Assembly: GCA_029261035.1 (NCBI GenBank)
Contig: JAJDCD010000025.1
Span: 323,952 to 387,951, forward strand
Reading direction: 5' to 3'
DNA: 64,000 nucleotides
From: Candidatus Omnitrophota bacterium
Lineage (GTDB): Bacteria; Omnitrophota; Omnitrophia; Omnitrophales; JACROU01
Made by a program: the position numbers and the translations under genes. Below, piece after piece: positions 15,968 to 64,000 of this stretch (positions are counted from its first letter, which is position 1; every line of letters starts with the position of its first letter). The notes below the pieces were generated by a model. That model worked only from the letters and a program-made list of their open reading frames with translations. It was not told where the DNA came from and made no database searches.

Positions 15968-15988
15968 TATTTGGAGGTAAAAGGTTCT

Positions 15989-16231
15989 TTATTTTCTATG
16001 CTCTTCTGAAGGAGGTAACGAGTCTGGCGTATAACGATTATGCGCCTTTTGTTCTGAAGGCAGCTCCTTCAACATCTTAGCTTCTTGCTTTGAGATTTGC
16101 TTCAAACACATCTTACGACGTGTCGGATCCAATAACGAAACTTTAAACAGAAGTCCTTTTAACTCAAGAATTTCATCAATTTCAAAACCTATTTTTTCTT
16201 CTTCCACGACAACCTCCTTACTTGTTTTCAT
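15989..16231 (-). CDS. Small hypothetical protein, 80 residues
   Basis: Charged protein, largely Lys/Glu, with one hydrophobic patch (EILELKGLLFKVSLLDPTRR). No signal peptide or membrane segment. It overlaps the end of the FkbM-type methyltransferase by 14 bases, so the two probably form one transcript, and a 16-bp inverted repeat follows. I recognise no family. A role linked to the methyltransferase or the adjacent P-II-like gene would be guesswork. Confidence 0.6.
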   Translation of the reverse strand: MKTSKEVVVEEEKIGFEIDEILELKGLLFKVSLLDPTRRKMCLKQISKQEAKMLKELPSEQKAHNRYTPDSLPPSEEHRK

Positions 16232-17021: not shown

Positions 17022-17089
17022 ATCACCCCATAAATAAACTAAAAATATTATCTCTCAAACAGGTCTTCTCTGCAATCATTCTTGGCAAA

Positions 17090-17359
17090 TTAATCGGGAA
17101 TATTTTTGTACTGATCTAACCACTTATAAAGTCGGTAAAAAATTAGGGCAGGGATATAAAGAATAATGATAAATAAATAATTGAGAGGTTTAAGAAGATC
17201 AAAAAATTCCTTCACCTGAAACCAAAACTCCTGCATATTACGAATATCCCAGGTATAACCCGTAATACTTAAAACAACAATTAAAGCCGATATTAACAGC
17301 CACAAAAAACATAAGGAATAACATAATCGGGATAAGTAAACCATTGTTTTACTGCTCAC
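17090..17359 (-). CDS. Small two-span membrane protein
   Basis: 89 residues with two hydrophobic segments: CYSLCFLWLLISALIVVL near residue 13 and LNYLFIIILYIPALIFYRLY near 60. Between them is an amphipathic stretch with MQEFWFQVKEF. GTG start at 17359, seven bases after GGAG and 11 bases inside the end of the thioredoxin-reductase-like gene, so it is co-translated; an ATG at 17344 is possible. No family recognised. It may anchor a partner of the upstream flavoprotein. Confidence 0.65.
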   Translation of the reverse strand: MSSKTMVYLSRLCYSLCFLWLLISALIVVLSITGYTWDIRNMQEFWFQVKEFFDLLKPLNYLFIIILYIPALIFYRLYKWLDQYKNIPD

Positions 17360-23015: not shown

Positions 23016-23017
23016 AG

Positions 23018-24592
23018 ATGAATAAAATAAACTCCACCCTTGTTGTCTTATGCTTAGTCTTTCTAGTTTCTGGCTGTGCAAATAAACACTATGTTTTCAG
23101 TGATACAAGTCCCGTCAAAACCTTAAACGACATGCAAGCTTCCCCATTACCTACAACAAATGATTTTGACTTCGCAGAAAATGCAGTAACTTCTGCCGGA
23201 AGATATCCTATCTCAGGTCATTTAGATCTAAGAAGAGCTAGTCGCAGTGCTGATGTAAACTCAATGGATCAAGTTCCAAATTCAACCTGGTACAACGCGA
23301 GATTGGGTTACACAGATATCAGCCCTAACGATTTGCTTCAAGGACCTATTTCTATTGGGGCTCCTCAAAAACCTATTACTGTAATTAAAACTAAAAAAAT
23401 TGGTGATAGCAAAGGATTTATTGTTAAGGACAGTAAAGGAAATAAATATTTAATCAAATTTGATCCTGCAGAGTATCCATTACTTCAAACAACAAACAAC
23501 TTAGTTGTGAATCGCCTTTTTTGGGGTTTCGGTTTTAATGTCCCTGAAGATTTTATTTTTTATTTCAAACGCAATGATTTAAATGTAGATTCCAATATCA
23601 ATGAGTCTGATGTGGACTCACTGCTTTTCGAAGTAGGTGCGGATAAAACAGGCCAGTATAGAACTACTGCAAGTTTATTGATTGAAGGCACTGTCCTAGG
23701 AGGAACACATCAAAAAGGAGTTCGTAAAGGGGATCTGAACGATAGAGTACCTCATGAGAACCTCCGTTCCCTAAGATCTCTTCGTGTCTTCTGTGCTTGG
23801 CTTGACCATACCGGAATGAGAACCGATAACTCTTTAGATGTTTATACCGGAACTGCGGGTAATGGTTACACAAAACACTACCTTCTTGATTTTGGTGAAA
23901 CTCTAGGAGCACATGGGGTAGAAAAAGGCCGCCCTTGGGATGGTCATGAACACTACTTCTCTTTAAAAGACTCTATAATAAAATTTGCAGAACTAGGTCT
24001 ATTTGTCCAACCTTGGGAAAACAGGGATCCAAAATCGAGCACACCTAAAGATTACTATCAAGTAGAAAATTTTAGTTTTGAAAAATGGAAAGAGTCACTA
24101 CCTTTTCAACCCATACAAAAAAGCCAACCCGACGACGACTACTGGGCTGTAAAAATTTTAGCATCTGTTACACGGGAACATCTCGAAACATTATTTAATG
24201 CAACGAACAATCCTCAAAAAGAATACCTAAACTATTTAATCGAAACCTTAGTTTCTCGCAAACAAATCATATTAAACGAAGTTCTTTCTTCCGTATCTCC
24301 TGTTGAAAGTACAGGTATTACTAACGGAGAACTTCAAATCACAAATATGGGTCAGAAAATTTTAGGTGGATTAGATAATATTAGTTACAAAATAAATTTC
24401 TATAATGAGAAGAATAAAAAAATATCGGAAACCCTTTTACTTGAAAACCAATCTACAAATTTCAGTATTCCTATAAACACCTCAAGCAATTACCTACGTG
24501 TTGATGTCCGAGTTTGGAAGAATGGAAAGAAAGCGCCTCGATCTGCAGAATTTCATATCCGCAACAATAAACTCGTTGGCGTTGTTCATTAA
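23018..24592 (+). CDS. Large lipoprotein of unknown function (partner of the barrel)
   Basis: 524 residues. ATG at 23018 (an upstream in-frame ATG at 23006 overlaps the barrel stop) with GGAAATAAAG upstream. Lipobox LVSGC near residue 22. A segment resembling a kinase-type fold follows: KGFIVKDSKGNKYLIKFDPA, then NRLFWGFGFNVPEDFIFYF and LDFGETLGAHG, reminiscent of CotH- or HipA-like atypical kinases. Other landmarks are DHTGMRTDNSLDVYTGTAG and RPWDGHEHYFSLKDSI. I infer a possible periplasmic kinase-like role but cannot identify the substrate. Translationally coupled to the Omp85-like barrel. Confidence 0.7.
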   Translation: MNKINSTLVVLCLVFLVSGCANKHYVFSDTSPVKTLNDMQASPLPTTNDFDFAENAVTSAGRYPISGHLDLRRASRSADVNSMDQVPNSTWYNARLGYTDISPNDLLQGPISIGAPQKPITVIKTKKIGDSKGFIVKDSKGNKYLIKFDPAEYPLLQTTNNLVVNRLFWGFGFNVPEDFIFYFKRNDLNVDSNINESDVDSLLFEVGADKTGQYRTTASLLIEGTVLGGTHQKGVRKGDLNDRVPHENLRSLRSLRVFCAWLDHTGMRTDNSLDVYTGTAGNGYTKHYLLDFGETLGAHGVEKGRPWDGHEHYFSLKDSIIKFAELGLFVQPWENRDPKSSTPKDYYQVENFSFEKWKESLPFQPIQKSQPDDDYWAVKILASVTREHLETLFNATNNPQKEYLNYLIETLVSRKQIILNEVLSSVSPVESTGITNGELQITNMGQKILGGLDNISYKINFYNEKNKKISETLLLENQSTNFSIPINTSSNYLRVDVRVWKNGKKAPRSAEFHIRNNKLVGVVH

Positions 24593-32078: not shown

Positions 32079-35000
32079 TTATTCTCTAGCTACGGGTGCT
32101 TCCATAACTTCGAGAATTCTACCTCTCATGTTTCCCATAAGAATTTTTTTGAATAAATCTCTATCAATATTTCCATCAATGATAATGGATGCTGAATGAG
32201 TGCGAACCAATCTCATGATCAAAGAACTCATTTCACGAAGAGAGAGAGCTCCATACCCACCCTCATAAGTAATTCCTTCTAAATGGGACTTTTCAACTCC
32301 AGGCAAGTTTATATATTGAGCCCCACCTTCAATGCCAAAAAGTAAACCCGCAGATTGATACGCTTCATTAAGAGCAGACATCAATCCCTTTCCACGATCA
32401 TAACTTAAATCAACGTCCACTTCTTCCCCACCATCTGTTTTAATACGAACGGTTCTACCTCGAATAAGGTTATCTAGCCCCCTCTCTATTTCTGCCTGTC
32501 TGGCCGTAAGGGGTTGATAGCCTATTCCACGCTGTGCTATTGGTTCTTCTAAAAGAAACGCTCTTAAAGGCATTCCTTTAGGGGTATCTCGAGCAATAAT
32601 TTCTTGCTCAACATGAGATAAGTTTTCTTTTGCAATTCTAAGCTCTTCATTGAGTTTTACTAAACTTGTTCTTAAATTTAATCTAACAGCATCAACTCTA
32701 TTATAATGATTTTCTTTCATCACTTTGTCTGGGTCTAAATAAAGTCTATTTCCTATCTTCAAAATGCGCTCTGCTTCATTCTCAGCCTCTTGAATCGCTG
32801 TTTCAATTCGCTCAACTTCTGCTTCTGCCTTTTCTTTTTTATCATCTAAAGGATCTCGAGTTAGTTTTCTTTTAAATGCTTCTCTATCAATTTCTCCCTC
32901 AACAATAAAGTCAGCTCCATGTTGCCTGACAAATCTAATAACAAGCTCCCGTATGTGCCTTAAAGATAATACCTCAACCCTTTCCACACTATCATCTTGA
33001 TATCCATCAAAAGCTTCTCTAAACCCAGCCATATCACGGTAACGCTCAATTCCCCTTACCTCTTCCAAAGCAGACAAAAGTCCCTTCTCACTATCATTTC
33101 CTAGAAGAACCTCTACGCCCTCTCCATCATCGGTAATAACACGTACTTTTCTATCATCAAGTAATTCACTCAAACCCTTTTCTATTTCAACTTGTCGATC
33201 GCTATATGCTGGGACCTCTAATCCAGCAATAGGAACGATAGGTTCCTCAATAATAGCTTTAATCGGCCGACCCGTATCTCTTTCAGTTATTTCCCTTCCT
33301 ATTCGTCTCAAATCTCCTTTTGCCATCCTTAACTCTTCTGTAAGCCGCATGAGACCTTCTCTTAAGGAAGCTCTTACAGACATAATTCGTTTATAATGAT
33401 TGTCCTTCATAACCCTATCCGGGTCTGAATAAAGACGCCTTCCAATATTCAACAACCTTTCAGCTTCATTCTCAACATCTTGAATCTCTGATTTAATTCT
33501 TTCTATTTCGGCTTCTGCCACCTCTTTCTTTTCCATCAATGGATCCACTTCTGGGGTGACTGACTCTAATACCTCGATAGGCATAGCCTCAATTTCTCTT
33601 GGGCGTAAAGAGGCTATCAGATTGGCTGCAGATTCTTGATTTTCACTTTTAGTAACATCAAGACCTACGATACCTTTATCCGTTATCTTTTTCATCACCT
33701 CTACATAGACTTTATTTCCATCCACTTCATATTCTCTTGTCGATCGGTATATGGAGGAATTAGTTTCCCTATCCATCACAATGGCATCATTATGGTAAGC
33801 TCCTGTTTGTGTTACTTCTCGATTCCCCACTAAACTCTGCACCTTTTCTAATATGAGTTTTTCAGCATCTTCAATAGCTCCAATGACGGGCAGCTCCCTA
33901 ACAATAGGCTCCAAAATAATAGGAACTTCAACAACTCGAGGCACTTCAATAACTGGAGCAACAGCGTATTCTCTTGGACGCAAAGAAGCTATAAGGCGTG
34001 CTGCCATTTCTTGATTCTCACTTTTAGTAACATCAAGACCAACAATTCCAGCAGCTGTTCTTTTTTCTTTAATATCCAAATAAACCTTTTCGCCATTCAC
34101 TTCATATTCTCTAATAGAGTCATAAATTGAGGCTCCTGACTGTCGATCTGTCATAATAGCGTCATTATAATAAGCTCCCGTTTGCTCAACATTTCTGCTT
34201 TGAAGTAAGGCTTGAACCTTTTCTAATATAAGTCTTTCGGAATCTTCAACAGACCCAATCACGGGTAGCTGAATCAATACAGGCAATTCTATAAGAACAG
34301 GTTCTTCAACAAGAGGGGGTGCTACTTCTATTGGAGCTTCTTGTACTACAATAGCTCTTTCAATCAATGTATTCGTATCAGGATCAATTTCAATAAAACC
34401 TGAACTCGCTATTTGTCTTAACCCGGATCGAGGCTCATTAGAGCTTAATTCAGTAACCATATTAGCTCGCAATAAGATGGATGGAAAATTTTGATCCCTA
34501 ATCAATTGATTAAAATCATCCAAAACAGCATTCGCCTGTCTATTCACACTCGTTGTGAAATTAGCGTTCTGCAAAGGATAATCTCTTCTCTCATGATATA
34601 TTTCCCCATTCCCAAAAGTATAAATATCAAAAGATTCTATTCCTACATTTCCAGGACTATGAAAATTTCTAATCTCCAGCTTTTTAGCTTCTCCATTTGT
34701 CGTGTCATATTCAACCTTAAAAGCACGACTCATTGCGTTCGAAGCAAAACTATAATCTGTCCCTTCAAAAGCAATCAAAGTTCCATTAATATACGTCTTC
34801 GTTAACGACTGACTCAACCCTCCACCCGCCGCATAAGACATAGATGAAATTGTAGAAGAAAATACATTTCCATCGCTATCATAATTCTCAACCGATGTAA
34901 AAATAGGTTTACCATCTAAATTATCTAAACGCATCTGTCTATTTTGTATTGTTCCGTTATTCATTCTAACAAAAAGAGATTGGCGAGACCCGTCTGGCAA

Positions 35001-36281
35001 AGTTAAGTTTTCTCTATATTCTTTAACTTGACCTTGATTATCCAAACGATAATTCGCAACTTCTTCTCCTTGAGCATCTTTAAGAATCACTTGATAAACA
35101 TTCATTTCACCGGTTGTGACATCTTCATTGATATAAAATTCATAACTCTCTAGTTCAGGAAGAGCAACTCGTGTACCTAGTTGAGTCATCGTTGCAACCA
35201 AAGCACCATTTTTACTTGAAACTAAAACTTGTGCTCCCACAGGCAATCTCAATTGCCCTACATAATCAATGACTCTTTGTTGGACTTGAGGCGTCTTTTG
35301 CCTAACAACCTCAGGGTCAAGTACGATATCCACCTCAGCCAACATAATTTGAGGCGCAGCTAATGTTAAGGGAACAGATATAACAGGTTTTGCTTCAGGG
35401 GTAGCAACTCTTATTAGAGGCTCTATTCTTACTTCCTCTTCTTCCATGATAAGAGGCTGTAAGACCATTGGAGATTCTTCTACTATCCTTTCTTTTGGCA
35501 GTGTAAGTACCGGAGCTCCTAATATAGGTTCTATTACTTCTATTCGTTTCTCCTCAACAGGTTCTTCCGATACAGGAAGTTCTGATTTTATCTGTTCTAC
35601 CTCATCTTGTATGGACCTTGCCCTTTCAAGAATGGGTTGGATAGTCGGTTTTGAAGCAACAATTTCTTGTTGTGTACGATCAAATTTTGAAGAGAAATCT
35701 TCACTGCTTTCTACTGCGCTTAAAACCTCAACAACTTCTCCTTTTTCATTTAAATCTAACTGAACATTAAAATAGCGAATTTGCTCATTGACTGAAACTT
35801 CAAATACATCTTCTCTGTTAGAGTAAATTTTTTCCGCGGCTTCATCTTTCTTTTCTTCGACTTCTCCTTTAATAGTTCTACCCGTTAAGTTTACTCCTCT
35901 AAATTTATTCAAAGCGCCCATCACTTTTCTTCGAACATCTTTCCCTATATCTTCATCAGACAAAACATCTTTAATCTGAGATTCGTCCATTCGAGTTAAA
36001 TCAACATCCTCTGAATCAAAAGTTGCTTTTTGAAGAGGGCCTGAAGACATCCAGTTCGTACTTTCTTCTGGGGATTTTTCAGGCTCAAAAGCCTGAATAG
36101 ACTCTTCCTCTTTTTCTTTTTGAAGAGCTTCTTCTTCGACTTCTTCTTGGGATATAGTCTGGGTCTTAGGGTCTAAGGATGGATCTAGCCCTGGAGGTGC
36201 TTGGGCCAATAGATTTGAAATAGGTAAAGCTTGTTGTAAAACAAAACAAAAAATGACTATTTTTATGCAAAAATTTTTCAT
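32079..36281 (-). CDS. Giant secreted protein with two pairs of internal repeats
   Basis: 1400 residues. ATG at 36281 has GGAG seven bases upstream; signal peptide about residues 1-26 (FVLQQALPISNLLAQ). The N-terminal third is acidic and proline-rich. Two repeat types follow. Type 1 occurs twice (around residues 670-790 and 800-930), each with QTGAYYNDAI- or QTGAYHNDAI-, GIVGLDVTKSENQE and LIASLRPRE. Type 2, also twice (about 940-1170 and 1170-1400), has a coiled-coil with EAEIERIKSEIQDVENEAE / EAEVERIETAIQEAENEAER, NHYKR/NHYNR and an HGADFIVEGEIDREAF / HSASIIIDGNIDRDLF close. No family recognised. Probably outer-membrane or extracellular. Confidence 0.7.
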   Translation of the reverse strand: MKNFCIKIVIFCFVLQQALPISNLLAQAPPGLDPSLDPKTQTISQEEVEEEALQKEKEEESIQAFEPEKSPEESTNWMSSGPLQKATFDSEDVDLTRMDESQIKDVLSDEDIGKDVRRKVMGALNKFRGVNLTGRTIKGEVEEKKDEAAEKIYSNREDVFEVSVNEQIRYFNVQLDLNEKGEVVEVLSAVESSEDFSSKFDRTQQEIVASKPTIQPILERARSIQDEVEQIKSELPVSEEPVEEKRIEVIEPILGAPVLTLPKERIVEESPMVLQPLIMEEEEVRIEPLIRVATPEAKPVISVPLTLAAPQIMLAEVDIVLDPEVVRQKTPQVQQRVIDYVGQLRLPVGAQVLVSSKNGALVATMTQLGTRVALPELESYEFYINEDVTTGEMNVYQVILKDAQGEEVANYRLDNQGQVKEYRENLTLPDGSRQSLFVRMNNGTIQNRQMRLDNLDGKPIFTSVENYDSDGNVFSSTISSMSYAAGGGLSQSLTKTYINGTLIAFEGTDYSFASNAMSRAFKVEYDTTNGEAKKLEIRNFHSPGNVGIESFDIYTFGNGEIYHERRDYPLQNANFTTSVNRQANAVLDDFNQLIRDQNFPSILLRANMVTELSSNEPRSGLRQIASSGFIEIDPDTNTLIERAIVVQEAPIEVAPPLVEEPVLIELPVLIQLPVIGSVEDSERLILEKVQALLQSRNVEQTGAYYNDAIMTDRQSGASIYDSIREYEVNGEKVYLDIKEKRTAAGIVGLDVTKSENQEMAARLIASLRPREYAVAPVIEVPRVVEVPIILEPIVRELPVIGAIEDAEKLILEKVQSLVGNREVTQTGAYHNDAIVMDRETNSSIYRSTREYEVDGNKVYVEVMKKITDKGIVGLDVTKSENQESAANLIASLRPREIEAMPIEVLESVTPEVDPLMEKKEVAEAEIERIKSEIQDVENEAERLLNIGRRLYSDPDRVMKDNHYKRIMSVRASLREGLMRLTEELRMAKGDLRRIGREITERDTGRPIKAIIEEPIVPIAGLEVPAYSDRQVEIEKGLSELLDDRKVRVITDDGEGVEVLLGNDSEKGLLSALEEVRGIERYRDMAGFREAFDGYQDDSVERVEVLSLRHIRELVIRFVRQHGADFIVEGEIDREAFKRKLTRDPLDDKKEKAEAEVERIETAIQEAENEAERILKIGNRLYLDPDKVMKENHYNRVDAVRLNLRTSLVKLNEELRIAKENLSHVEQEIIARDTPKGMPLRAFLLEEPIAQRGIGYQPLTARQAEIERGLDNLIRGRTVRIKTDGGEEVDVDLSYDRGKGLMSALNEAYQSAGLLFGIEGGAQYINLPGVEKSHLEGITYEGGYGALSLREMSSLIMRLVRTHSASIIIDGNIDRDLFKKILMGNMRGRILEVMEAPVARE

Positions 36282-36398
36282 GGGTATACTCCACTCCATT
36301 TTCTCTAGCCAGCCCCATAAATAAATCTTTTTTAAACTTGTTTAAATGTTCGCATACATATTGTTACATTGCAAATCTTTATAGTCATTATCTGTTAA

Positions 36399-50387: not shown

Positions 50388-50650
50388 ATTCACACTGACA
50401 GAGTTACCATAAAGACGAAGCCTCTTAAAAATGTACTCGAAAAATAATTTCTAAGTATAGTGGGTAAATTATCAGAACCATACCAGGACTAATGCCCCCT
50501 AAAAAAAAGGCTTTTTTTACCTAAATACCCCTTTAACTGCAACCGATATCTCTTTATACTCCCTAGTCCATTTGGGGATTGTATGGATTGAGCTAATTTG
50601 CAAGGCTAACCCCCTACTGTTAAACTTTTTATTATGGGGTAAGGAGCATG
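50388..50650. promoter_or_regulatory. Leader of the giant exoprotein gene
   Basis: No gene in 263 bp. AAAAAAAAGGCTTTTTTT (50502-50519) is a palindromic A/T stretch that may be a weak terminator of the methyltransferase. Farther on, TTGGGG..CCCCCT (50571-50625) brackets a looser GAGC/GGCT pair, so the leader could fold. The ribosome site AAGGAG (50641-50646) serves ATG 50651. I looked for a cyclic-di-GMP riboswitch and did not find its core. Confidence 0.45.
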
Positions 50651-53600
50651 ATGTTCCAAACTAAACGTAAAACACATAGAGATAAAAACGTCACTATTTT
50701 CGTAGCCGTGATCGTTTGCCTATTTTTTTCTGTAGGTTCCCTCTATGCTCTTCCTCAACAATCTGAAGTTGTTTCTGGAAATGCAAATTTCGATCAATCC
50801 GATTCCAGCACGTTAAATATCACAGCTTCTGATAATTCGATTATCAATTACTCTTCTTTCAATATCGCTCAAAACGAAACAGTTAATTTCTTCTTACCTT
50901 CCGTCGACTCATTTTCTTTGAACCGGGTTATCGATGGTGGACAAACTCAAATTTTAGGAACACTTACGGCTAACGGAAATTTGATCTTAGTTAATACGGA
51001 TGGATTTTTCTTTGGCTCTTCTGCTGACGTTCAAGTCGGTGGACTTATTGCTTCTGGTTTAGATATCTCAAATCAAAACTTTTTGAATGGAAATTATATT
51101 TTTGGATCTATCGATGACGCACTTAATCAATCTTTATCCCAAGTTGTTAATCAAGGAACGATTGTTACCCGTGATGGAGGTTTTGCAATTTTAGTTGCAG
51201 GTGCTGTTAGCAACGAAGGAATTATTCAAGCTCCTCTCGGAACAGCAATTCTTGCCGCCGGCGAAGTTGTCACTGTCGGAGTTTCTGCAAACAATCTTGT
51301 TTCCATCGCAATTGATGAAGCTGTTTCATCTCAAGTTCTAGATGCCGACGGAAATCCAATCTCAAATCAAATTTCAAATGACGGACAAATTACAGCTCCA
51401 AATGGTAAAGTGATGCTCAAAGCAAAAGCCATGGATGATATCTTTGACCAATCCATAAACATGGAAGGTCATATTGAAGCCGATCAGGCTGTCATGAAAG
51501 ACGGTGTGATCGAAATCTTCGGCTCAGGAGATATTTCAATGACAGGGCAAATCGATGCTCGAAAAGGCGGTATCGACATTTCAACCCCAAAGTCCGTTAA
51601 CGTATCTGGAAATTATAATGCGAGTGAAAATGACTTTACTATAGAGGTAGGAAAAAACATAAATATAACAAAGCCATTAACGACCGTTGGAGACACTAAC
51701 TTTAGAGCTAATGAAAGTATTTTAGTGTTATCCAACATATCCACAGAGGCTGGGGATTTATCCTTCATAGCCGACCTAGATCAGAACGGCACAGGAGCAA
51801 TCACTCAGATAGCAAACACTTCTATTGAAACCACCAGCTTCGGAGATATTACCTTTGAAGCATCTGAAGACATTTCCTTATCCCATATAAGTAGTGTCGG
51901 TTCGGTTACAGTAGAGACAGCTTCTGACCTTTATATTAAAGGTGACATTCTCTCTATAGGAAACACCGATTTCTCAGCTGCTGGGGACATACAAATAGAA
52001 GCTGATATTACGGTTCAATCAGGAAACCTCCGTATTCTAGCTGATTCTGATTTGAACGGTTCTGGCGGAATTGTCCAATTAGCTAATACAGAGATAAAAA
52101 CCGTCACCTCTGGAGATATTACTCTTAAAGCTTCTGAACCTACACAACTGGAAACCGTGGTTTCTGCTGGAAGCCTTACTGTAGAATCCGCTTCCGATAT
52201 CCAGATTAATGCTCCTATCACCGCAATTGGCAATAGTGAGTTCAAATCAGACAATAATATATATGTTACCTCTGATATTACTGTAGATTCCGGTAATCTT
52301 AGTTTACTAGCAGATGCAGATTTAGATGGATCAGGCGCTTATTTACAAACAGCCGGAACCATCAAAACTACCACATTTGGAGATATTACCCTTACCAGCT
52401 CGGGCACGAGCAGCGTTGGAAGTGTCATCTCAGCAGGCCATCTCTATCTTAATAGTGCTGGATCCCCTGCTACCTATACTCAATTATTAGATACCAAGGT
52501 AGAAACCGCTGGATCCTTAATTATTGCGGATCAGTCTACTTATAACGCTGGAAACGCTACTTTAGAAATTGCTAAGGATTTCATCAATTTAGGTCAATTT
52601 ATACCCGGCATCTCGACAGTCCATCTTATCGGACCTGCAGAAGCCATCGTCCAAGGTGATAATACATATCACAACTTGGTCATTATCGAACCAGGAAAGA
52701 CAGTCACATTTGAGTCCGGTTCCACTCAAACCATCACTGGTATTTTTACTGCCCAAGGCGGATTCGGGAAGCTTCTTACCCTAAAATCTTCCCAAGCCGA
52801 AATCCCTTGGAAAATTAATGCCACCGGTACGAGTGATTTGCAATTCGTCCGAGTTCTCAATTCTGACAATGTCAATATCCACGGTCCACCATTGGCGCCT
52901 CTTTACAGTCAAAACGCTTTAGGTAATACAGGTTGGGACTTCTCACAGTCAGGCCCTGTCTGGACTGGCTCTAATTCCCTTATTTGGTCTGATTCTCTTA
53001 ATTGGAACGGTGGATTTGTGCCCTCGTCAGGAGACATTGTGTCTTTTTCTGATCTTTCTGGGTCAAACTCTATTTCAGACTCCCCTTTCGAAATATCTGG
53101 TTTAACTCTTAATTCTTCATATTCTGGAAATCTCTCTTTAAATAGTAATTTAGTGGTCAATGGAAATGTCAGCTTAGCTGGCGGCACTCTTGAAACAAAT
53201 GGTCACTCCATTTCAGCATCTGGATCCTTCGAAACCTCTGGAACGCAAATTGATGCTTTTGGTGGATTGACGGTAGATGCTCAAACCATCGAAATCAGCG
53301 GTCAAATTATTGGGTCTGAGTTGATCCAATTTACTGGAATCGACGGAACCACATTAAAATCAGATTCCAGCATTGTGGCTCATTCTGGCACAATAGTTTT
53401 GTATAGCCCAAATGGGGATACCATCCTAGAATCTGGCTCTTCGATTGATGTCTCTTCCCCATCCGCTCAAGGAGGAACTATTCACGTCCTTGGAAACCGA
53501 GTTGGACTTATTAATGCCTCTCTCAATGCTTCTGGACCTTTAGGTGGTGGAACTATTCTAGTGGGTGGTGAATATCGTGGACAAGGAGATATCCCAACAG

Positions 53601-56600
53601 CCAATAGAACTTATGTAGACTCCAACTCTCTAATTCAAGCCAATGCTCTAAATAATGGCGATGGTGGAAGAGTTATTTTCTGGGCAGATGATCAAACTCA
53701 GTTCTATGGAACAGTTGAAGCTCAAGGTGGTCCTCAAGGTGGAAATGGTGGGTTCATCGAAATTTCTGGAAAAGAAAATTTAGACTATCAAGGAAATGCT
53801 AGTGCTAAAGCTCCTTTAGGAAATCCTGGAACCGTTCTTTTTGACCCAGCCACTATTGATGTAGATACTGATGGAACAGATGGAGCTAATGGTGGAACCA
53901 TTGCTTTTGCAGACGCTCCAGCTGCAGAACCTTGGAATGTAACCCCTGCCCAACTGGATGCTGTGGGTGGAAATATTATTTTGGAAGCAACCAACGACAT
54001 TAATATTAATAGTGCGATCAGCTTAACTACCAACGGTGCCAGCATCACTATGAGAGCTGGAGACGACATTACAATTAGTGCAACAATCACAACTCGTGGT
54101 GGAGATATTAATATCACTTCTAACGATGCAGGTGGTCCTGGCAGTGGCAATGGTGAAGTACAAGTGGATTTTGCTTTAGATACGACAGGCGGTGGACAAA
54201 CCGGTGGTGCTGTAACCATTACCGTCGCTGGTGGAAACCAAGAACTCGAAGTGGATGCAGGAATCACAACAGATAGTGCTAACATTAATTTAATTTCAAA
54301 TGCTACCTCTGGAAATCAAACAGACATTCGTGTTGATGCCGACCTTCTCATTAATGGAACAACAGGAAACGTAGTCATCACTCAAACTTCAGGTACAGCG
54401 GACGACATTCTTCTACGAGCTGATATTACTACAGGTGGTGGAGATATTACTATTACATGGGCTGGGGACGATGTGAATTTCAACAATGGCTTTGATGCAG
54501 ACTTGACTACAGGTGCTGGTGGAGATATTACTATTACGGATAGCGGCAACCTAGGACAATCCATCTTAATTCAAGATCCAACAGGTTCTATTGCTCCAGG
54601 TGCTGGTGGAAATATTTCTTTAGATGCGGATGATATTAACCAAAATGCAGCAGGGGTTGGTTTTGCTATTACGGGTGGTGGCAACGGAACATCTGTAACT
54701 CTTTCAGCAGTTGACGACCAAACACTTCGCGCAAACTTGATTACTCAAACAGGAACAGGAACTGTTACTCTTACTACCACCGGTGGTGGTAATAATGACA
54801 TGAATTTATTAGGACCAACCGTCATTACTATTAATGAAGGCCTATTAACTATTGATTCTGATCGTCGTATTAATGCCGTTAATGCTGGAAATGAAATTGA
54901 TGCCGATGGTGATATTACCATTCAAGGTGTTCGTATTGGTAACTCAGCTGCTAATGCTGAAATCGGAATCACCGGAGATGGAAGCGCTGATAGCACACTA
55001 ACCATTACCAAAATCACAAACAATGCGGATGTTACAAATATTACTTTAGCTTCTGACTTATTTAGTGACATCGACTTAGATGTTGCTGACCGTGATGCTC
55101 CTGTAGACATCAACTTCTCTTTCAGTGGAACGGACGACATTGATATTGATAATGCTGCCGAATGGCAAATTACTAATATTGTATTAACAGGCACAGACAT
55201 CGAACTCACCATTGATTTATTGGATACACAAAACTCTGATATCGATATCAATAATATTGATATGGGAACAGCTGACTTAACCATTACCACCGTTAACAGT
55301 GACATCGATGTGGTTAATGCAACTGGTGGTATTACCACAGAAGGTGGAGATCTTACTTTTACGACAACCACAAATGCGAATCGAGTTATTCGAATTTCTG
55401 AAGCTATCGATACCAATGGTGGAAACATTAGTTTTTCTTCTTTAAACAATGTAGTAATAAATAATGCGGCAGCAGATATTGTTACCGATGGTGGAACTTT
55501 CACTGTCGATGCGGACTCTGAAGACAATGGAACCGGAAATTTTAATATTAATGATGCTGGAGCATCTGTAACCACCACATCAGGTGCCATTCAAATTACT
55601 TCAAATAATATTACTGTTACAGGAACTTTAGATAGTGGAACAGCCTCCACAACCCTTCTTGTTTCTGATGGTGGCACTATGGGTGTTGGTGCTACTGCGG
55701 GTGCTTGGACACTCGATGGAGCAGAACTTGAAAACATCACAGCAACCGGCTTAACAATTGGAGATACAACTAACGGCAATATTACGGTAGATGGAATCAC
55801 AGCAGCAAATAGCAACAACATTTCAGGAATTACAACTTTAGTTGCTACACAAGATAATGCTTCCGTTAACTTCTCTACAACTGCTTCTACTTTCAATGCC
55901 CTTACAGTTAACGCTGACGATGGAATTGATGTCAACGTGGATGTTACGACAGATGTTGGTGCTCTTAACTTTAATGGTGACTTCGATAGCGCTGCAGATA
56001 CCAATGACAACATTGATATTGCTGGTGGCATTACTCTTCTCTCTGCTAGCAACTTAACTCTTGCAGCAACCACCGGGGGTGTTCTCCTTAGCGGTGCTGA
56101 TGCTACCACAGTAACTTTAGATGCTGATGGAGATGGACTTATAACCATTCCAGCAGTAACAGCAACTAACAATCCCAACTTAACAATTAACTCTCAAGGA
56201 AACTTAACATCTAGCACTATCAATATTGGCACCGGTGCCTTAGACATCGATATCGATAGTGACAATGATGAAAGTTTAACCACCACCTTCACTACCCTAA
56301 CTTCTGGAACATTAAATGTGGATGGTCAAGGAGACAATGAAACATTTACTTTTAATAGCGCTGTTGCTACAAGCGCTGCTGGAGGAATTGATATCAACGG
56401 CGGTGCTATTAATATCAATAACACTTTTACGACCACAGGCACAGGCACCGTTACAATCACGAATGCAGGATTATTAACCATCGCTGCTGCTGGCGACATG
56501 ACTTTAGATGGTGCTTTTAACCAAGACGGCGCTGGTGCAGTTTCAACCGCTGGAAATATTGTCACCACGAATGATGCCATCAGTTTTACCGGAGTTGTTA

Positions 56601-59600
56601 CATTAACAGGAAATATTGTTCTTACTTCAGGAACAGCAACCGTAACAACCAATGCCAACTTTAACAGTGGCTCTAATGACTTAGACATTAACGGAGACTT
56701 AAGTGTCGCTGGAGGAACCTTTACTGCTCCAGCAGGTGGACAAACATTCACTGTTTCAGGAGATATCACCCTAGGAACTTTTGCAGCTAACGGAGGGACT
56801 CTTACCCTAGATGGCACTGCCGATCAAACCTTTACAACAAACGTTCAAACATTCAACAACTTAATCATTAATAATACAGGTGGCGGTACGGCCGATGACA
56901 TCATAACCAGTGGCAACCTTGATGTAGATGGCAACTTAACCATTACTCTAGGAAACCTAGACATGGATACTAACAATAGCACTCTAGATCTAGAAGGAAA
57001 TTTAACTTTAGCCAATGCCGCTCAGGCAACTTTAACTACAGATCAAAACATGAATATTGCAGGTAATGTTTTAGTCAACAATGCAGCCACACTTACTATT
57101 AATGGCGGGACTCTTACTATAGATGGTACAACCGATCAAACTTTTGACGTGGATGGTCAAGCGCTCAATAATTTAACCATTAATAACACAGGTGGCGCTG
57201 GCACAGATGACATCATTGTTACTGACACTTTAGATATTAACGGAAATTTTATTATTACCGATGGAGACTTAGACATTAATACGAATGACCCTGACGTAAA
57301 CACTGCTGGAGATGTCACCATTGCTGCAGCAGGCTCCGTAGATGCCGGTACTGGAACTTGGACTTTTGATGGTACAGGAACAAATACTCTTATTGCTAAT
57401 TCTCAAAACTTAGGTGCTGTTACCATTGACGGTACTGCAAAAGTTATTCAACTCAGCACTGATTCTGTAACGATCACAACACTAACTATTGGCGCCGATG
57501 ATGAACTCAGTTTAGAGGCACAAGACATAACCATCACCACCCTATCCAACGATGGAACATTTAGACTTCAAGGTTCCGAAACAGTCACTTTAGCAGCTAA
57601 TGATATTGACTCAGGCACTTGGATTTACGTTGGAGATAATGATGCCGTTCTAGACACTTACACAGTAAAAGATTTTGGCGGAACTGATTATTTCAACGTA
57701 GAATATAATGCTACAGATGGCTTAGACGTTTTTCAATTAGCTGCCAACCTAACAGTAGCAAACAATTCAACAAGCACCGATGGTGTTCTTGATTTGGAAG
57801 GTAATGATTTAAGCGTTACCGGAGCTTTAGTTAATGGGTCTAGCGCCACATTAGAACTTTTTGGAGATGAAACCATCACCTTTGGTGGAGGTTCCGCTAA
57901 CCTAGCTGGAGCTACTATTCGCTACACCGGCGATGGCGATGGCGCTGCTGATACTTACAATTTAACTGGTTTAATTGCTACTCACCAAAATTTAATTGTA
58001 AACTCAACCGATGGTATTTTAGATATTTTCGAACTTAACGCTAACTTAAGCGTTCTCGTTGATTTTACCGTTACTGCAGGAATAGTTGATTTGAACGGAT
58101 TTAACTTATCCGTTACTGGAACATTTTCAAATGACGCCACCATTAGACTGCAAGGAAATGAAACAGCTACTCTTACTCAAGACACCGACTCTGGTATTTG
58201 GGAATATGTTGGGGATGGCGATGCTCTAGCAGATACATTTACTGTAATTGATTTTGGTGGCACAGATTATTTTAATCTTGTCATTAATGCTACAGACGGT
58301 TCCATAGATATTTTTCAATCAGCCGCAGCCAAATCAGTAGCAGGTACTCTTACTGTCACAGCAGGTATTCTAGATATTAATGGAAATGATCTTACCGTCA
58401 CTGGAATAGTAACTAACGATTCTACCATTCGCGCGGATGGCGGTGAAACAGTAACACTTACTTCCGGAAATGATATCGATTCAGGAACATGGGAATATGT
58501 CGGTGACGCAGATGCTGCAGCAGACACATTAGCTCTTCATGATTTTGGTGCTACTGATTTCTTCAACCTTACGATTAATACTACGGATGCTGCTGATGTT
58601 ATTCAATCAGGTGCTGCTAAAGTAATTGCTGGTGCCTTAGTTGTTTCTGGTGGTTCTCTAGATGCCAATGGGAATACAACAACCATTACTGGACTCACAA
58701 CTGTTAGCGGTGGAACATACCTAGCCTCTACTGCGACTCAAACATTCAATGGCGGATTAACTCTTACCACAGGTACTTTCACTGGGGCTTCTGGAATTGT
58801 TGATGTAAACGGAGATTTAACTGCTAGCGGCGGAACTTTCACAGCATCTTCAACGACTACTTCTGTTTCTGGCAACGTAAATTTGAGCGGAACCACATTT
58901 GGAGCTAATGGAGGAACATTCACTTTAGATGGGACCACGGACCAAACGTTTAATAATGGAAGCGCTACATTCAACAACCTAATTGTTAATAATACGGGTG
59001 GTGGTACAGCCGATGACATCATTGTTTCAGGAGGAACATTAAATGTAGATGGAGCTCTAGCTGTAACAGAAGGTAACTTAGACTTAACCACCAACAGCAT
59101 TGCTCTTGATGTTGAAGGATCTTTAACTTTAGCTAATGATGCGGATGCTACTTTAACCACGGACAGCAACATTAATGCCGCTGGAGATGTTCTCGTAAAT
59201 GACTTAGCTATTCTAACCGTCACTTCTGGCACTTTTATCTTAGATGGTACAGCAGACCAAAACTTTGATGTCGATGGACAAGCCATTAATAATTTAACTC
59301 TTAACAACACCGGCGGAGGTACCGCGGATGACATCATCGTTAATGGCGGTACTTTAGATATCAACGGTGACCTTCTTATCACCTTAGGAAATTTAGATCT
59401 AACCACGAACAGCATCGCAATGGACCTTGAAGGAAACTTAACTCTTGCCGATGCCGCTCAAGCAACTTTAACCACCAACAGTAATATGAATATTGCGGGC
59501 AACGTTCTTGTGAATGATTCTGCTACCATCACAGTTACAGGTGGCACTCTTGAACTGGATGGAACCGCAGATCAAACTTTTGATGTTGACGGACAAGCTA

Positions 59601-62600
59601 TCAATAACTTAACCATCAATAACACTGGTGGTGGTACTTCGGATGACATCATTGTTGATGGAGGTGGATTAGATGTGAATGGGAATTTAGTTATCACTCT
59701 CGGTAACTTAGACTTAACCACCAACAGTCAATCTTTAGATCTTGAAGGTGATCTTACGTTAGCCAATGCAGCTCAAGCAACTTTGACTACCAACAGTAAT
59801 ATAAATATTGCGGGTAACGTTTTAGTTAATGATGCTGCTACCATCACAGTTACGGGTGGCACTCTTGAACTGGATGGAACCGCAGATCAAACTTTTGATG
59901 TTGACGGACAAGCTATCAATAACTTGACCATCAATAACACCGGTGGTGGTACCAATGATGACATTATTGTTTCTGGTGGTACTTTAGATGTGAATGGGAA
60001 TTTAGTTGTCACTTTAGGTAACTTAGACTTAACGACGAACAGTATTTCTTTAGACCTTGAAGGTGATCTTACGTTAGCCAATGCAGCTCAAGCAACTTTG
60101 ACTACCAACAGCAACATGAATATTGCGGGTAACGTTTTAGTTAATGATGCTGCTACCCTTTCCATCTCTGCGGGTACTTTAACCTTAGATGGTACAGCGG
60201 ATCAAACTTTCGATATTGATGGACAAGCTTTGAATAACCTTACCATAAATAACACCGGCGGCGGTACCGCGGATGACATTATTGTGAACGGTGGTACTTT
60301 AGATGTGAACGGTAATTTAGTGGTTACTTTAGGTAACTTAGATTTGACCACCAACAGCATTGCTTTAGATCTTGAAGGCGACTTAACTTTAGTAGACGCT
60401 GCTCAAGCAACTTTAACTACGAATAGTAATATGAATATCGCTGGCAATGTTCTCGTGAATGATTCTGCCACAATCACCATTACCGGTGGCACCCTTGAAC
60501 TCGATGGAACCGCAGATCAAACTTTCGATGTCGATGGTCAAGCTTTAAACAATTTAACCATCAATAACACCGGTGGTGGTACCGCGGATGACATCGTTGT
60601 TAACGGCGGTGGATTAGATGTGAATGGTAACTTGATTGTCACTCTCGGTAATTTAGACTTAACCACCAACAGTCAAACTTTAGATCTTGAAGGTGATTTA
60701 ACTTTAGCTGACGCGGCTCAAGCGACTTTAACCACGAACAGTAATATGAATATCGCTGGTAATGTTCTTGTCAATGATTCTGCCACAATCACCATTACCG
60801 GTGGCACCCTTGAACTCGATGGAACCGCAGATCAAACCTTTGATGTTGACGGACAAGCTTTAAATAATCTTACCATCAACAACACTGGCGGTGGTACCAA
60901 TGATGACATTGTTGTTTCTGGTGGTACGTTAGATGTGAATGGAAATTTAGTTGTCACTTTAGGTAACTTAGACTTAACGACGAACAGTATTTCTTTAGAC
61001 CTTGAAGGTGCCCTTACTCTTGCGGATGCGGCTCAAGCGACTTTAACCACGAACAGTAATATGAATATCGCTGGCAATGTTCTCGTCAATGATTCTGCTA
61101 CGATTACAGTTACCGGTGGTACTCTTGAATTAGACGGTACAGCCGATCAAACCTTTGATATTGATGGCCAAGCACTGAACAACCTTACCATCAATAACAC
61201 CGGCGGCGGTACAGCCGATGATATTATTGTTAACGGAGGTGCCTTAGATGTAAACGGTAACTTAGCTGTCACTTTGGGTAACTTAGACTTAACCACCAAC
61301 AGCATCACTCTTGACCTTGAAGGTGATCTTACGCTAGCCGATGCAGCTCAAGCGACCTTAACAACAAATAGCAATATGAACATTGCGGGTAACGTTCTCG
61401 TCAATGATTCAGCTACGATCACGGTTACCGGTGGTACTCTTGAACTGGATGGTACCGCTGATCAAACCTTTGATATCGATGGTCAAGCGTTGAACAACTT
61501 AACCATCAACAACACCGGTGGCGGCACCGCTGATGATATTATCGTTGATGGCGGTACTTTGGATGTGAATGGTAATTTAGTTGTCACTCTCGGTAACTTA
61601 GACTTAACCACCAACAGTCAAACTTTAGATCTTGAAGGTGATCTTACGTTAGCCGATGCTGCTCAAGCTACCTTAACAACAAATAGCAATATAAACATTG
61701 CGGGTAACGTTCTCGTCAATGATGCGGCTACGATTACTATAACTGGTGGTACTCTCACCCTTGATGGCACGACTGACCAAACCTTTGACGTTGACGGACA
61801 AGCCTTGAACAACTTAACCTTAAATAATACGGGCGGTGGCACCGCGGATGACATCATCGTTGACGGCGGTACTCTCGATGTGAATGGTAACTTGCTTATT
61901 ACTTTAGGTAATTTAGACCTTGGAACTAATAACGTTGCTCTAGACTTAGAAGGAAATTTAACGTTAGCGGATGCGGCTCAAGCCACTTTAACGACAGACT
62001 CTGATATGAGTATTGCTGGAGATGTTCTCGTTAATGATTCTGCAATCATTACGGTTACCGGTGGCACACTCACCCTTGACGGTACAGCGGATCAAACTTT
62101 CGATGTCGATGGGCAAACTTTGAATAACTTAACCATCAACAACACCGGTGGTGGTACCAATGATGACATCATTGTTGCGGGTGGCGCCCTTGATGTAAAC
62201 GGCAATTTAACAATCACCTTAGGTAACTTAGATCTTACAACCAACAGTACTTCCCTAGACTTGGAAGGAAGTTTAACTTTAGCGAATGCGGCTCAAGCGA
62301 CTTTAACCACTAACAGCAATATGAATATTGCTGGCGACGTCTTAGTCAATGACGCGGCTACGATTACAATAACCGGCGGCACTTTAGAGTTAGATGGTAC
62401 AGCCGACCAAATCTTCGATATTGATGGCCAGGCTGTTAACAACTTAACCATTAACAACACCGGTGGCGGTACCAATGACGACATCATCGTTACGGGTGGC
62501 GCTTTGGATGTAAATGGCAATTTAGTGGTTACTCTCGGTAATTTAGATCTTACAACCAATAGTCTCACTCTTGACCTTGAAGGCGACTTAACTTTAGCCA

Positions 62601-64000
62601 ATGCAACTCAAGCGACCTTAACCACCAACAGCAATATGAATATTGCGGGCAATGTTTTGGTGAACGATGCGGCTACGATTACCGTTACCGGTGGCACTTT
62701 AGAACTTGATGGTACGGCGGATCAAACTTTCGACGTCGATGGTCAAGCCCTTAACAATTTAACCATTAATAACACCGGTGGGGGCACGAATGACGACATC
62801 ATCGTGGGCGGTGGTGCTTTAGACGTGAACGGTAATTTAGTTGTCACTTTAGGTAACTTAGACTTAACAACGAATAGTATCGCTCTTGATCTTGAAGGTG
62901 ATTTAACTTTAGCCGATGCAGCTCAAGCTACATTAACAACGAATAGCAATATGAACATCGCTGGTAATGTTCTTGTTAATGATGCAGCCACCATCACCGT
63001 TACCGGTGGTACTCTTGAGTTAGACGGTATAGCTGATCAAACTTTTGATATCGACGGTCAAGCGTTGAACAATTTAACCATCAACAACACCGGCGGTGGC
63101 ACGAATGACGACATCATCGTGAGTGGTGGAACATTAGACGTAAACGGTAACTTAGTTGTAACCTTGGGTAATTTAGATCTTACAACCAACAGCATTGCTC
63201 TTGACCTTGAAGGTGATCTTACTTTAGCTAACGCAGCTCAAGCGACTTTAACTACAAACTCGAATATGAACATCGCGGGTAATGTTCTCGTCAATGACGC
63301 GGCGACCATCACAGTTACTGGTGGCACTTTAGAACTCGATGGCACCGCAGATCAAACCTTTGATGTTGATGGGCAAGCTTTAAATAATTTAACGATTAAC
63401 AACACGGGCGGTGGTACGAATGACGACATCATCGTGGATGGCGGTACTCTCGATGTCAATGGTAACCTTCTTATTACTTTAGGTAACTTGGATCTTGGGA
63501 CCAATAACGCGGTTCTCGACCTTGAAGGTAATCTTACTTTAGCCGATGCGGCTCAAGCGACTTTAACTACAGATGCGGATATGAGTATTGCTGGAGATGT
63601 TCTCGTTAATGATTCTGCGATCATCACAGTCACAGGTGGCACACTTACCCTTGATGGTACCGCGGATCAAACTTTTGATGTCGATGGTCAAGCGTTGAAC
63701 AATCTAACGATTAATAACACCGGTGGCGGCACAGCCGATGACATCATCGTTGCGGGTGGTGCTCTTGATGTTAATGGTAACCTTCTTATCACTTTGGGTA
63801 ATTTAGATCTTACAACCAATAGCACTTCCCTAGACTTGGAAGGAAGTTTAACTTTAGCGAATGCGGCTCAAGCTACTTTAACTACGAACAGCAATATGAA
63901 CATTGCTGGAGATGTTCTCGTTAATGATGCGGCTACCATCACGGTTACTGCTGGAATTCTTACTTTAGATGGTGCAGCTGATCAAACTTTTGATGTCGAC
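50651..64000 (+). CDS. Giant TPS-type (filamentous-haemagglutinin-like) exoprotein, 3' end beyond window
   Basis: One frame stays open for all 4450 codons to the window edge. AAGGAG lies 4 bases before ATG 50651; a second ATG at 50648 is too near it. Signal peptide about residues 1-34 (ends SLYA). TPS domain: SLNRVIDGGQTQILGTLTAN, then NTDGFFFGSSADVQVGGLIA. Later landmarks are NWNGGFVPSSGDIVSF (autotransporter-type) near 53000 and TVLFDPATIDVDTDG near 53840. After that come beta-helix-type repeats, with two repeat families described separately. Sequence is rich in Asp, Asn, Thr, Gly. Probably secreted by an Omp85/TpsB pore not adjacent here, and used as an adhesin, surface layer or predation factor; that is inference. 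Confidence 0.93.
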   Translation, partial: MFQTKRKTHRDKNVTIFVAVIVCLFFSVGSLYALPQQSEVVSGNANFDQSDSSTLNITASDNSIINYSSFNIAQNETVNFFLPSVDSFSLNRVIDGGQTQILGTLTANGNLILVNTDGFFFGSSADVQVGGLIASGLDISNQNFLNGNYIFGSIDDALNQSLSQVVNQGTIVTRDGGFAILVAGAVSNEGIIQAPLGTAILAAGEVVTVGVSANNLVSIAIDEAVSSQVLDADGNPISNQISNDGQITAPNGKVMLKAKAMDDIFDQSINMEGHIEADQAVMKDGVIEIFGSGDISMTGQIDARKGGIDISTPKSVNVSGNYNASENDFTIEVGKNINITKPLTTVGDTNFRANESILVLSNISTEAGDLSFIADLDQNGTGAITQIANTSIETTSFGDITFEASEDISLSHISSVGSVTVETASDLYIKGDILSIGNTDFSAAGDIQIEADITVQSGNLRILADSDLNGSGGIVQLANTEIKTVTSGDITLKASEPTQLETVVSAGSLTVESASDIQINAPITAIGNSEFKSDNNIYVTSDITVDSGNLSLLADADLDGSGAYLQTAGTIKTTTFGDITLTSSGTSSVGSVISAGHLYLNSAGSPATYTQLLDTKVETAGSLIIADQSTYNAGNATLEIAKDFINLGQFIPGISTVHLIGPAEAIVQGDNTYHNLVIIEPGKTVTFESGSTQTITGIFTAQGGFGKLLTLKSSQAEIPWKINATGTSDLQFVRVLNSDNVNIHGPPLAPLYSQNALGNTGWDFSQSGPVWTGSNSLIWSDSLNWNGGFVPSSGDIVSFSDLSGSNSISDSPFEISGLTLNSSYSGNLSLNSNLVVNGNVSLAGGTLETNGHSISASGSFETSGTQIDAFGGLTVDAQTIEISGQIIGSELIQFTGIDGTTLKSDSSIVAHSGTIVLYSPNGDTILESGSSIDVSSPSAQGGTIHVLGNRVGLINASLNASGPLGGGTILVGGEYRGQGDIPTANRTYVDSNSLIQANALNNGDGGRVIFWADDQTQFYGTVEAQGGPQGGNGGFIEISGKENLDYQGNASAKAPLGNPGTVLFDPATIDVDTDGTDGANGGTIAFADAPAAEPWNVTPAQLDAVGGNIILEATNDININSAISLTTNGASITMRAGDDITISATITTRGGDINITSNDAGGPGSGNGEVQVDFALDTTGGGQTGGAVTITVAGGNQELEVDAGITTDSANINLISNATSGNQTDIRVDADLLINGTTGNVVITQTSGTADDILLRADITTGGGDITITWAGDDVNFNNGFDADLTTGAGGDITITDSGNLGQSILIQDPTGSIAPGAGGNISLDADDINQNAAGVGFAITGGGNGTSVTLSAVDDQTLRANLITQTGTGTVTLTTTGGGNNDMNLLGPTVITINEGLLTIDSDRRINAVNAGNEIDADGDITIQGVRIGNSAANAEIGITGDGSADSTLTITKITNNADVTNITLASDLFSDIDLDVADRDAPVDINFSFSGTDDIDIDNAAEWQITNIVLTGTDIELTIDLLDTQNSDIDINNIDMGTADLTITTVNSDIDVVNATGGITTEGGDLTFTTTTNANRVIRISEAIDTNGGNISFSSLNNVVINNAAADIVTDGGTFTVDADSEDNGTGNFNINDAGASVTTTSGAIQITSNNITVTGTLDSGTASTTLLVSDGGTMGVGATAGAWTLDGAELENITATGLTIGDTTNGNITVDGITAANSNNISGITTLVATQDNASVNFSTTASTFNALTVNADDGIDVNVDVTTDVGALNFNGDFDSAADTNDNIDIAGGITLLSASNLTLAATTGGVLLSGADATTVTLDADGDGLITIPAVTATNNPNLTINSQGNLTSSTINIGTGALDIDIDSDNDESLTTTFTTLTSGTLNVDGQGDNETFTFNSAVATSAAGGIDINGGAININNTFTTTGTGTVTITNAGLLTIAAAGDMTLDGAFNQDGAGAVSTAGNIVTTNDAISFTGVVTLTGNIVLTSGTATVTTNANFNSGSNDLDINGDLSVAGGTFTAPAGGQTFTVSGDITLGTFAANGGTLTLDGTADQTFTTNVQTFNNLIINNTGGGTADDIITSGNLDVDGNLTITLGNLDMDTNNSTLDLEGNLTLANAAQATLTTDQNMNIAGNVLVNNAATLTINGGTLTIDGTTDQTFDVDGQALNNLTINNTGGAGTDDIIVTDTLDINGNFIITDGDLDINTNDPDVNTAGDVTIAAAGSVDAGTGTWTFDGTGTNTLIANSQNLGAVTIDGTAKVIQLSTDSVTITTLTIGADDELSLEAQDITITTLSNDGTFRLQGSETVTLAANDIDSGTWIYVGDNDAVLDTYTVKDFGGTDYFNVEYNATDGLDVFQLAANLTVANNSTSTDGVLDLEGNDLSVTGALVNGSSATLELFGDETITFGGGSANLAGATIRYTGDGDGAADTYNLTGLIATHQNLIVNSTDGILDIFELNANLSVLVDFTVTAGIVDLNGFNLSVTGTFSNDATIRLQGNETATLTQDTDSGIWEYVGDGDALADTFTVIDFGGTDYFNLVINATDGSIDIFQSAAAKSVAGTLTVTAGILDINGNDLTVTGIVTNDSTIRADGGETVTLTSGNDIDSGTWEYVGDADAAADTLALHDFGATDFFNLTINTTDAADVIQSGAAKVIAGALVVSGGSLDANGNTTTITGLTTVSGGTYLASTATQTFNGGLTLTTGTFTGASGIVDVNGDLTASGGTFTASSTTTSVSGNVNLSGTTFGANGGTFTLDGTTDQTFNNGSATFNNLIVNNTGGGTADDIIVSGGTLNVDGALAVTEGNLDLTTNSIALDVEGSLTLANDADATLTTDSNINAAGDVLVNDLAILTVTSGTFILDGTADQNFDVDGQAINNLTLNNTGGGTADDIIVNGGTLDINGDLLITLGNLDLTTNSIAMDLEGNLTLADAAQATLTTNSNMNIAGNVLVNDSATITVTGGTLELDGTADQTFDVDGQAINNLTINNTGGGTSDDIIVDGGGLDVNGNLVITLGNLDLTTNSQSLDLEGDLTLANAAQATLTTNSNINIAGNVLVNDAATITVTGGTLELDGTADQTFDVDGQAINNLTINNTGGGTNDDIIVSGGTLDVNGNLVVTLGNLDLTTNSISLDLEGDLTLANAAQATLTTNSNMNIAGNVLVNDAATLSISAGTLTLDGTADQTFDIDGQALNNLTINNTGGGTADDIIVNGGTLDVNGNLVVTLGNLDLTTNSIALDLEGDLTLVDAAQATLTTNSNMNIAGNVLVNDSATITITGGTLELDGTADQTFDVDGQALNNLTINNTGGGTADDIVVNGGGLDVNGNLIVTLGNLDLTTNSQTLDLEGDLTLADAAQATLTTNSNMNIAGNVLVNDSATITITGGTLELDGTADQTFDVDGQALNNLTINNTGGGTNDDIVVSGGTLDVNGNLVVTLGNLDLTTNSISLDLEGALTLADAAQATLTTNSNMNIAGNVLVNDSATITVTGGTLELDGTADQTFDIDGQALNNLTINNTGGGTADDIIVNGGALDVNGNLAVTLGNLDLTTNSITLDLEGDLTLADAAQATLTTNSNMNIAGNVLVNDSATITVTGGTLELDGTADQTFDIDGQALNNLTINNTGGGTADDIIVDGGTLDVNGNLVVTLGNLDLTTNSQTLDLEGDLTLADAAQATLTTNSNINIAGNVLVNDAATITITGGTLTLDGTTDQTFDVDGQALNNLTLNNTGGGTADDIIVDGGTLDVNGNLLITLGNLDLGTNNVALDLEGNLTLADAAQATLTTDSDMSIAGDVLVNDSAIITVTGGTLTLDGTADQTFDVDGQTLNNLTINNTGGGTNDDIIVAGGALDVNGNLTITLGNLDLTTNSTSLDLEGSLTLANAAQATLTTNSNMNIAGDVLVNDAATITITGGTLELDGTADQIFDIDGQAVNNLTINNTGGGTNDDIIVTGGALDVNGNLVVTLGNLDLTTNSLTLDLEGDLTLANATQATLTTNSNMNIAGNVLVNDAATITVTGGTLELDGTADQTFDVDGQALNNLTINNTGGGTNDDIIVGGGALDVNGNLVVTLGNLDLTTNSIALDLEGDLTLADAAQATLTTNSNMNIAGNVLVNDAATITVTGGTLELDGIADQTFDIDGQALNNLTINNTGGGTNDDIIVSGGTLDVNGNLVVTLGNLDLTTNSIALDLEGDLTLANAAQATLTTNSNMNIAGNVLVNDAATITVTGGTLELDGTADQTFDVDGQALNNLTINNTGGGTNDDIIVDGGTLDVNGNLLITLGNLDLGTNNAVLDLEGNLTLADAAQATLTTDADMSIAGDVLVNDSAIITVTGGTLTLDGTADQTFDVDGQALNNLTINNTGGGTADDIIVAGGALDVNGNLLITLGNLDLTTNSTSLDLEGSLTLANAAQATLTTNSNMNIAGDVLVNDAATITVTAGILTLDGAADQTFDVD
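56823..57300 (+). repeat. Early copies of the 105-residue repeat
   Basis: One complete copy (QTF at 56823) and one partial copy (57135, 312 bases later) of the unit that later forms the long array. They share LTLDGTADQTF, NNLIINNTGGGTADDI and LEGNLTLANAAQATL. After the second copy the pattern stops and a different repeat family intervenes. Confidence 0.85.
57560..58640 (+). repeat. About 97-residue repeat family, four degenerate copies
   Basis: A block recurs with the anchor Trp/Arg codon at 57620, 57920, 58199 and 58490, i.e. spaced 300, 279 and 291 bases. Shared features are SGTWEYVGDGDA-like, then DTFTVIDFGGTDYFNLVINA and ATDGSIDIFQ. It separates the early and main copies of the 105-residue family, inside the same frame. 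In the second copy the anchor Trp is Arg (TIRYTGDGD). Confidence 0.8.
58941..64000 (+). repeat. Main array: exact 315-bp (105-residue) tandem repeats
   Basis: The anchor ATCAAACTTT-like motif recurs at 58941, 59256, 59571, 59886, 60201, 60516, 60831, 61146, 61461, 61776, 62091, 62406, 62721, 63036, 63351, 63666 and 63981, each 315 bases apart without a single slip. Unit consensus runs through TADQTFDVDGQALNNLTINN, TGGGTADDIIVNGGTLDVNG, NLVVTLGNLDLTTNSIALDL, EGDLTLADAAQATLTTNSNM and NIAGNVLVNDSATITVTGGT then LELDG. The array continues beyond the window. Confidence 0.95.

Follow-up and report, generated by a model that had tools for sequence, protein, structure and literature searches.

A probable giant TpsA exoprotein of an Omnitrophota bacterium with an old tandem array of 105-residue units in exact register

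The TpsA exoprotein EtpA of enterotoxigenic E. coli (PDB 8VBA, 8VBB and 8CPK) contains three 228-residue modules and a 219-residue partial module that form an unbroken three-sided β-helix, and its repeats are needed for binding to the blood-group A glycan (PMC11463764). An array in exact register is also found in region II of MpAFP, a giant ice-binding surface adhesin of Marinomonas primoryensis, which has about 120 units of 104 residues (PMC4083281). Protein repeats usually diverge quickly from one another under relaxed or positive selection (PMC5120217), and accelerated divergence between repeats has been reported to be universal for protein repeats (Persi 2016). In the phylum Omnitrophota, giant ORFs are reported to be common, and extracellular as well as adhesive regions have been predicted in them; the paper that describes them stresses transmembrane helices and the scarcity of annotated domains, and mentions neither two-partner secretion nor haemagglutinins (PMC10066038). 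A limited literature search returned no report of two-partner secretion in this phylum.

We analyzed a stretch of 64,000 nucleotides (the window) from a metagenome-assembled genome (2.70 Mb, 26 contigs) that belongs to Omnitrophota, as do the three closest relatives of its Rho protein. The ORF list and translation reveal a giant frame at 50648-64000 (+) that encodes at least 4451 residues and is open at its 3' end. Contig C18 stops at position 387951, precisely where the window stops; the gene and the repeat array within it are therefore cut by the assembly rather than by our choice of window, and the gene, its unit count and its 3' end are incomplete. A segment resembling a signal peptide, as judged by eye, precedes a TPS secretion domain at residues 39-288 (50762-51511, +), which matches PF05860 with an E-value of 2.3e-20 and 74 bits (Pfam cut-off 33.5). 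Against PDB chains the domain matches EtpA (E = 4.6e-35), HMW1 (1e-21) and HxuA (1.2e-20). The frame probably encodes part of a very large secreted bacterial protein, and probably an adhesive one. Elsewhere in the window, a 1406-residue ORF at 32079-36299 (-) has no Pfam match; the first of two overlapping ORFs at 21672-24592 (+) weakly matches Omp85, and the second has no match.

The array occupies 59069-64000 (+) and consists of 15 full units of 315 bp, or 105 residues (59069-63793), and a 207-bp partial unit (63794-64000) that is cut by the contig end; all of it lies within the single uninterrupted frame. A sequence-only reading of this DNA had described a perfect 315-bp register, and this is what we observe: 17 DQxF anchors, at 58940, 59255 and onwards to 63980, mark out head-to-tail modules of constant length, with all 16 intervals being exactly 315 bp. 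The same holds for the 16 GNLDL anchors from 59069 to 63794 (15/15 intervals), and TRF gives a period of 315 bp with 15.6 copies. Self-comparison, which that reading had proposed as a check, gives an identity of 0.784 at a lag of 315, compared to 0.293 and 0.296 at lags of 312 and 318, respectively. The 15 full units align without any gap using MAFFT, and the in-frame period agrees with the 105-residue unit that had been proposed.

Upstream copies of the unit in the same frame (+ strand) are less regular. A shorter, gapped copy at 56670-56950 is about 52% identical, and the copy that follows it at 56951-57259 is 75% identical to the array units but one residue shorter, owing to a deletion near unit position 92, and is out of register with the array. 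The lead-in copy at 58780-59068 is about 53% identical and has three gaps, all in its first half; from about 58940 onwards it shares the register of the array. Searching 285 Omnitrophota genomes with a profile of the unit returned distant copies, single or few, in eight other genomes, and no second array of the 105-residue unit. No relative was found by scanning genome contigs with the array protein, no match by searching the PDB sequences with the array profile, and no Pfam family matches the unit. Matches of the array to KSHV_K1, DCDC1, YdbH and other Pfam families were rejected as artefacts of repeat composition, since no stretch passes alone. In a genome of the same family, a protein of 3.7-3.8 kaa (contig G001:C27) carries β-propeller-like repeats of ~50 residues (TVALKTDGTVWAWG...GQLGDGTT) whose lengths vary by one residue.

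The relationships between units record how the array grew. In a FastTree phylogeny units 2 and 5, 3 and 6, and 4 and 7 are sister pairs with SH-like support of 0.91, 0.97, and 0.95, respectively, identifying two consecutive three-unit blocks at 59384-61273 (+): units 2-3-4 (59384-60328) and units 5-6-7 (60329-61273). A five-unit duplication has left its trace at 61904-64000 (+), where unit 10 (starting at 61904) pairs with unit 15 (63479) with a support of 0.998, and unit 11 with the partial unit 16; amino acid identity is 0.94 between units 10 and 15 and 0.90 between unit 11 and the partial unit 16. Silent identity falls weakly with the distance between units (rho -0.25; 42/5000 permutations). 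The array grew long ago, whole units being added three and five at a time, and it is this whole-unit duplication, together with constraint on the frame and the protein, that best explains the exact 315-bp register.

The units are much more alike as protein than as DNA. Among the 15 full units mean base identity is about 76%, leaving some 24% of bases different between units, and residue identity averages 86-88%. Third-position identity has a mean of 0.51 and reaches 0.71 in the best pair, with 0.44 expected at saturation from independent codon draws; 103/105 third positions are variable and 61/105 residues are invariant. The median dN/dS among unit pairs is 0.062 (pN/pS 0.15), although this value is imprecise because dS is near saturation, with 14/105 pairs saturated and not correctable. 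With silent sites near saturation at about 87% amino acid identity, the array is old, as had been supposed from the sequence, lacks recent homogenisation and is held to a single amino acid consensus. That copies old at their silent sites have barely changed in protein sequence is the only unusual point about the array, and it sets these units apart from protein repeats generally, which diverge rapidly (PMC5120217). Since short-read assembly favours arrays whose units have diverged, the combination of age and uniformity may be partly a sampling effect; a second array of this genome, with 79-residue units on contigs C2 and C3 (described below), shows the same pattern, and there the assembly breaks where units become alike.

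A structure prediction of three units, another of the checks that had been suggested, returned an all-β solenoid with a β-helix fold. This AlphaFold2 model is of moderate confidence (mean pLDDT 69.7, pTM 0.64) and its input alignment comprised the array sequences alone. It contains 13-14 strands per unit, which fits about five three-strand coils per unit, plausibly a whole number. VIA aligns the model to β-helix proteins with Z-scores of 13-19, including VacA p55 (18.7), pertactin (16.4), the repeat region of EtpA (16.3) and HMW1 (14.9); Foldseek alone returned no match below an E-value of 0.001. The array is thus predicted to form a long parallel β-helix stalk.

Comparison with the described systems suggests EtpA as the closest working model for the protein, by analogy. 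The TPS domain has its best PDB sequence match in EtpA, both proteins carry tandem modules of exact length, and the model resembles the EtpA repeats (VIA Z 16.3). The window gene differs in having modules of 105 rather than 228 residues, at least 16 of them rather than 4, a size at least 3x larger, and an origin in another phylum; we found no sequence relation between the modules of the two proteins. FHA, HMW1 and HxuA likewise share the TPS domain, the β-helix (here a predicted one) and TpsB partner genes, which are present in this genome, but have no long array of 105-residue modules. MpAFP is similar in its very long in-register array, its nearly equal unit length and its nature as a giant surface adhesin, yet it is another type of protein: its units are Ca2+-dependent Ig-like domains that are mutually identical, whereas those of the window form a predicted β-helix, are about 87% identical and have silent sites near saturation. 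The giant ORFs described from Omnitrophota (PMC10066038) come from the same phylum and are, like the window gene, very long.

Four TPS N-termini are encoded in the genome, together with four TpsB genes of the ShlB type (TpsB confirmed by matches to POTRA_2 and ShlB); all four TpsA frames reach contig ends. The three TpsA genes other than the window gene lie on C18, C8, and C21 and so far encode 7494, 7145, and 2654 residues, respectively, each cut by a contig end, and on C8 two TpsB genes stand in tandem upstream of the TpsA gene. Within the window no TpsB adjoins the giant gene. Two further contigs probably continue it. C2 is an open frame over its whole length and is the contig closest to the window gene, both in protein score (457 bits, as against 250-300) and in shared DNA words. 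A second exact-register array, with units of 79 residues, closes C2 (1-3564, -) and resumes at the start of C3 (2-2338, +), with identical shared stretches of at least 99 bases. Its seven full units lack indels, some of them being 95% identical in DNA, and a diverged eighth follows. C3 ends the frame with a C-terminal fragment, directly after which lies a TpsB gene (2586-4346). Because C2 is the most similar to the window gene, C18, C2 and C3 probably represent a single gene of at least 6,400 residues followed by its TpsB, an arrangement that we infer across the contig gaps. No overlap by shared k-mers joins C18 to C2 or C15, and the window gene could for this reason not be closed. C15 carries, at 5224-17241 (-), the 4005-residue C-terminal part of another giant β-helix protein, with a 204/205-residue repeat. 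The C terminus of the window gene lies beyond the window; in the C-terminal fragments on C3 and C15 no toxin domain of the CdiA type was seen, and their weak, dispersed Pfam matches include no stretch that passes alone.

The sequence-only reading had also held that arrays of this age normally show indels, and had suggested that unit length may be under strong structural selection. The expectation turns out to be small. Parsimony requires a minimum of 103-112 amino acid changes across the 15 units. Calibrated on Rho compared with 80 orthologues (50 gaps per 10,800 differences; 47/80 comparisons without any gap), 0.5 indels are predicted; calibrated on other arrays of the same genome, which are few in number (1 indel per 116 changes), 1.0 are predicted. 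A 26,187-residue open frame on contig G003:C33 was excluded from this calibration as it is a long masked run of N. At that number of changes the probability of seeing no indel is 0.38-0.62, so zero is unremarkable, the first of the two claims fails this calibration, and no special explanation for the missing indels is needed. For this reason we regard it as unlikely, though worth keeping in view, that unit length is itself selected, with whole coils keeping a surface feature on one face and indels being purged on that account. Such selection would fit the absence of indels over about 103-112 amino acid and at least 608 nucleotide changes, the indel-free seven full units of the 79-residue array in what is probably the same gene, and the 228-residue repeats of EtpA, each with 9 strands per side (PMC11463764); general protein constraint alone, however, fully predicts a zero. 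Moreover, the diverged copies in the same frame (56670-57259 and 58780-59068) carry gaps and units of the 204/205-residue array on C15 differ by an indel of one residue, so the fold tolerates changes of length by whole residues. What stands of the second claim is strong selection on the protein (dN/dS about 0.06), from which a part specific to length is inseparable.

The similarity of the units could instead reflect recent concerted evolution, in which gene conversion or unequal exchange keeps them alike and in register, as the exact period and the three- and five-unit duplications in the tree might suggest. Homogenisation would equalise silent sites too, and these are near saturation (third-position identity 0.71 in the best pair, mean 0.51); the events that are visible are all ancient. 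For the units assembled here we consider this reading largely refuted and improbable. The very high silent divergence of a conserved protein might alternatively have been selected, lowering DNA identity and thereby stabilising the array against recombination. This appears quite improbable to us, given that silent identity, at 0.51, lies above rather than below the 0.44 expected, for which neutral drift suffices, and that short-read assembly itself selects diverged arrays. An assembler that collapsed or multiplied units is the least credible account, and a very improbable one. Its appeal lies in the contig ending within the array, in all four TpsA genes reaching contig ends, and in the C2/C3 break falling exactly where units become 95% identical; the units in the C18 locus, in contrast, differ at about 24% of bases and no 77-mer recurs there, leaving them too different for the assembled stretch to have been collapsed or multiplied. 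Collapse may have occurred beyond the contig end, outside the assembled units.

We therefore favour, with good confidence, the interpretation that the window encodes the N-terminal portion of a giant exoprotein of the TpsA class, from an uncultured member of Omnitrophota, whose register stems from block growth by whole units and from purifying selection. According to this proposal, the TPS domain would be recognised by an outer-membrane pore of the TpsB (FhaC/ShlB) type; threaded through it, the chain would then take the form of a long right-handed β-helix at the cell surface. A 105-residue module of about five coils would have been multiplied by unequal homologous recombination, in blocks of three and five units, with whole-unit additions setting the exact 315-bp period. 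Sequence exchange between units would later have ceased, and purifying selection would have held each of them near the same amino acid consensus. Frameshifts would have been purged for disrupting the frame, and the scarcity of in-frame indels would reflect a protein with little tolerance for change of whatever sort. By analogy to EtpA, the likely function would be that of a long stalk or a multivalent adhesin, whose equal and similarly facing modules may bind a repetitive surface as the 228-residue modules of EtpA do.

Going further, and tentatively, each unit may have been kept separately at one consensus up to near-saturation of its silent sites, with neither homogenisation nor accelerated divergence, such that every module does the same job. 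If true, each module could, for example, serve as one of a series of equivalent binding sites on a rigid ruler. The array also offers a case of protein repeats apparently conserved against one another over a long time. To the giant ORFs for which Omnitrophota is known, the window gene would add an adhesin-like example of the two-partner-secretion type, and it would give these ORFs a concrete secretion route to test.
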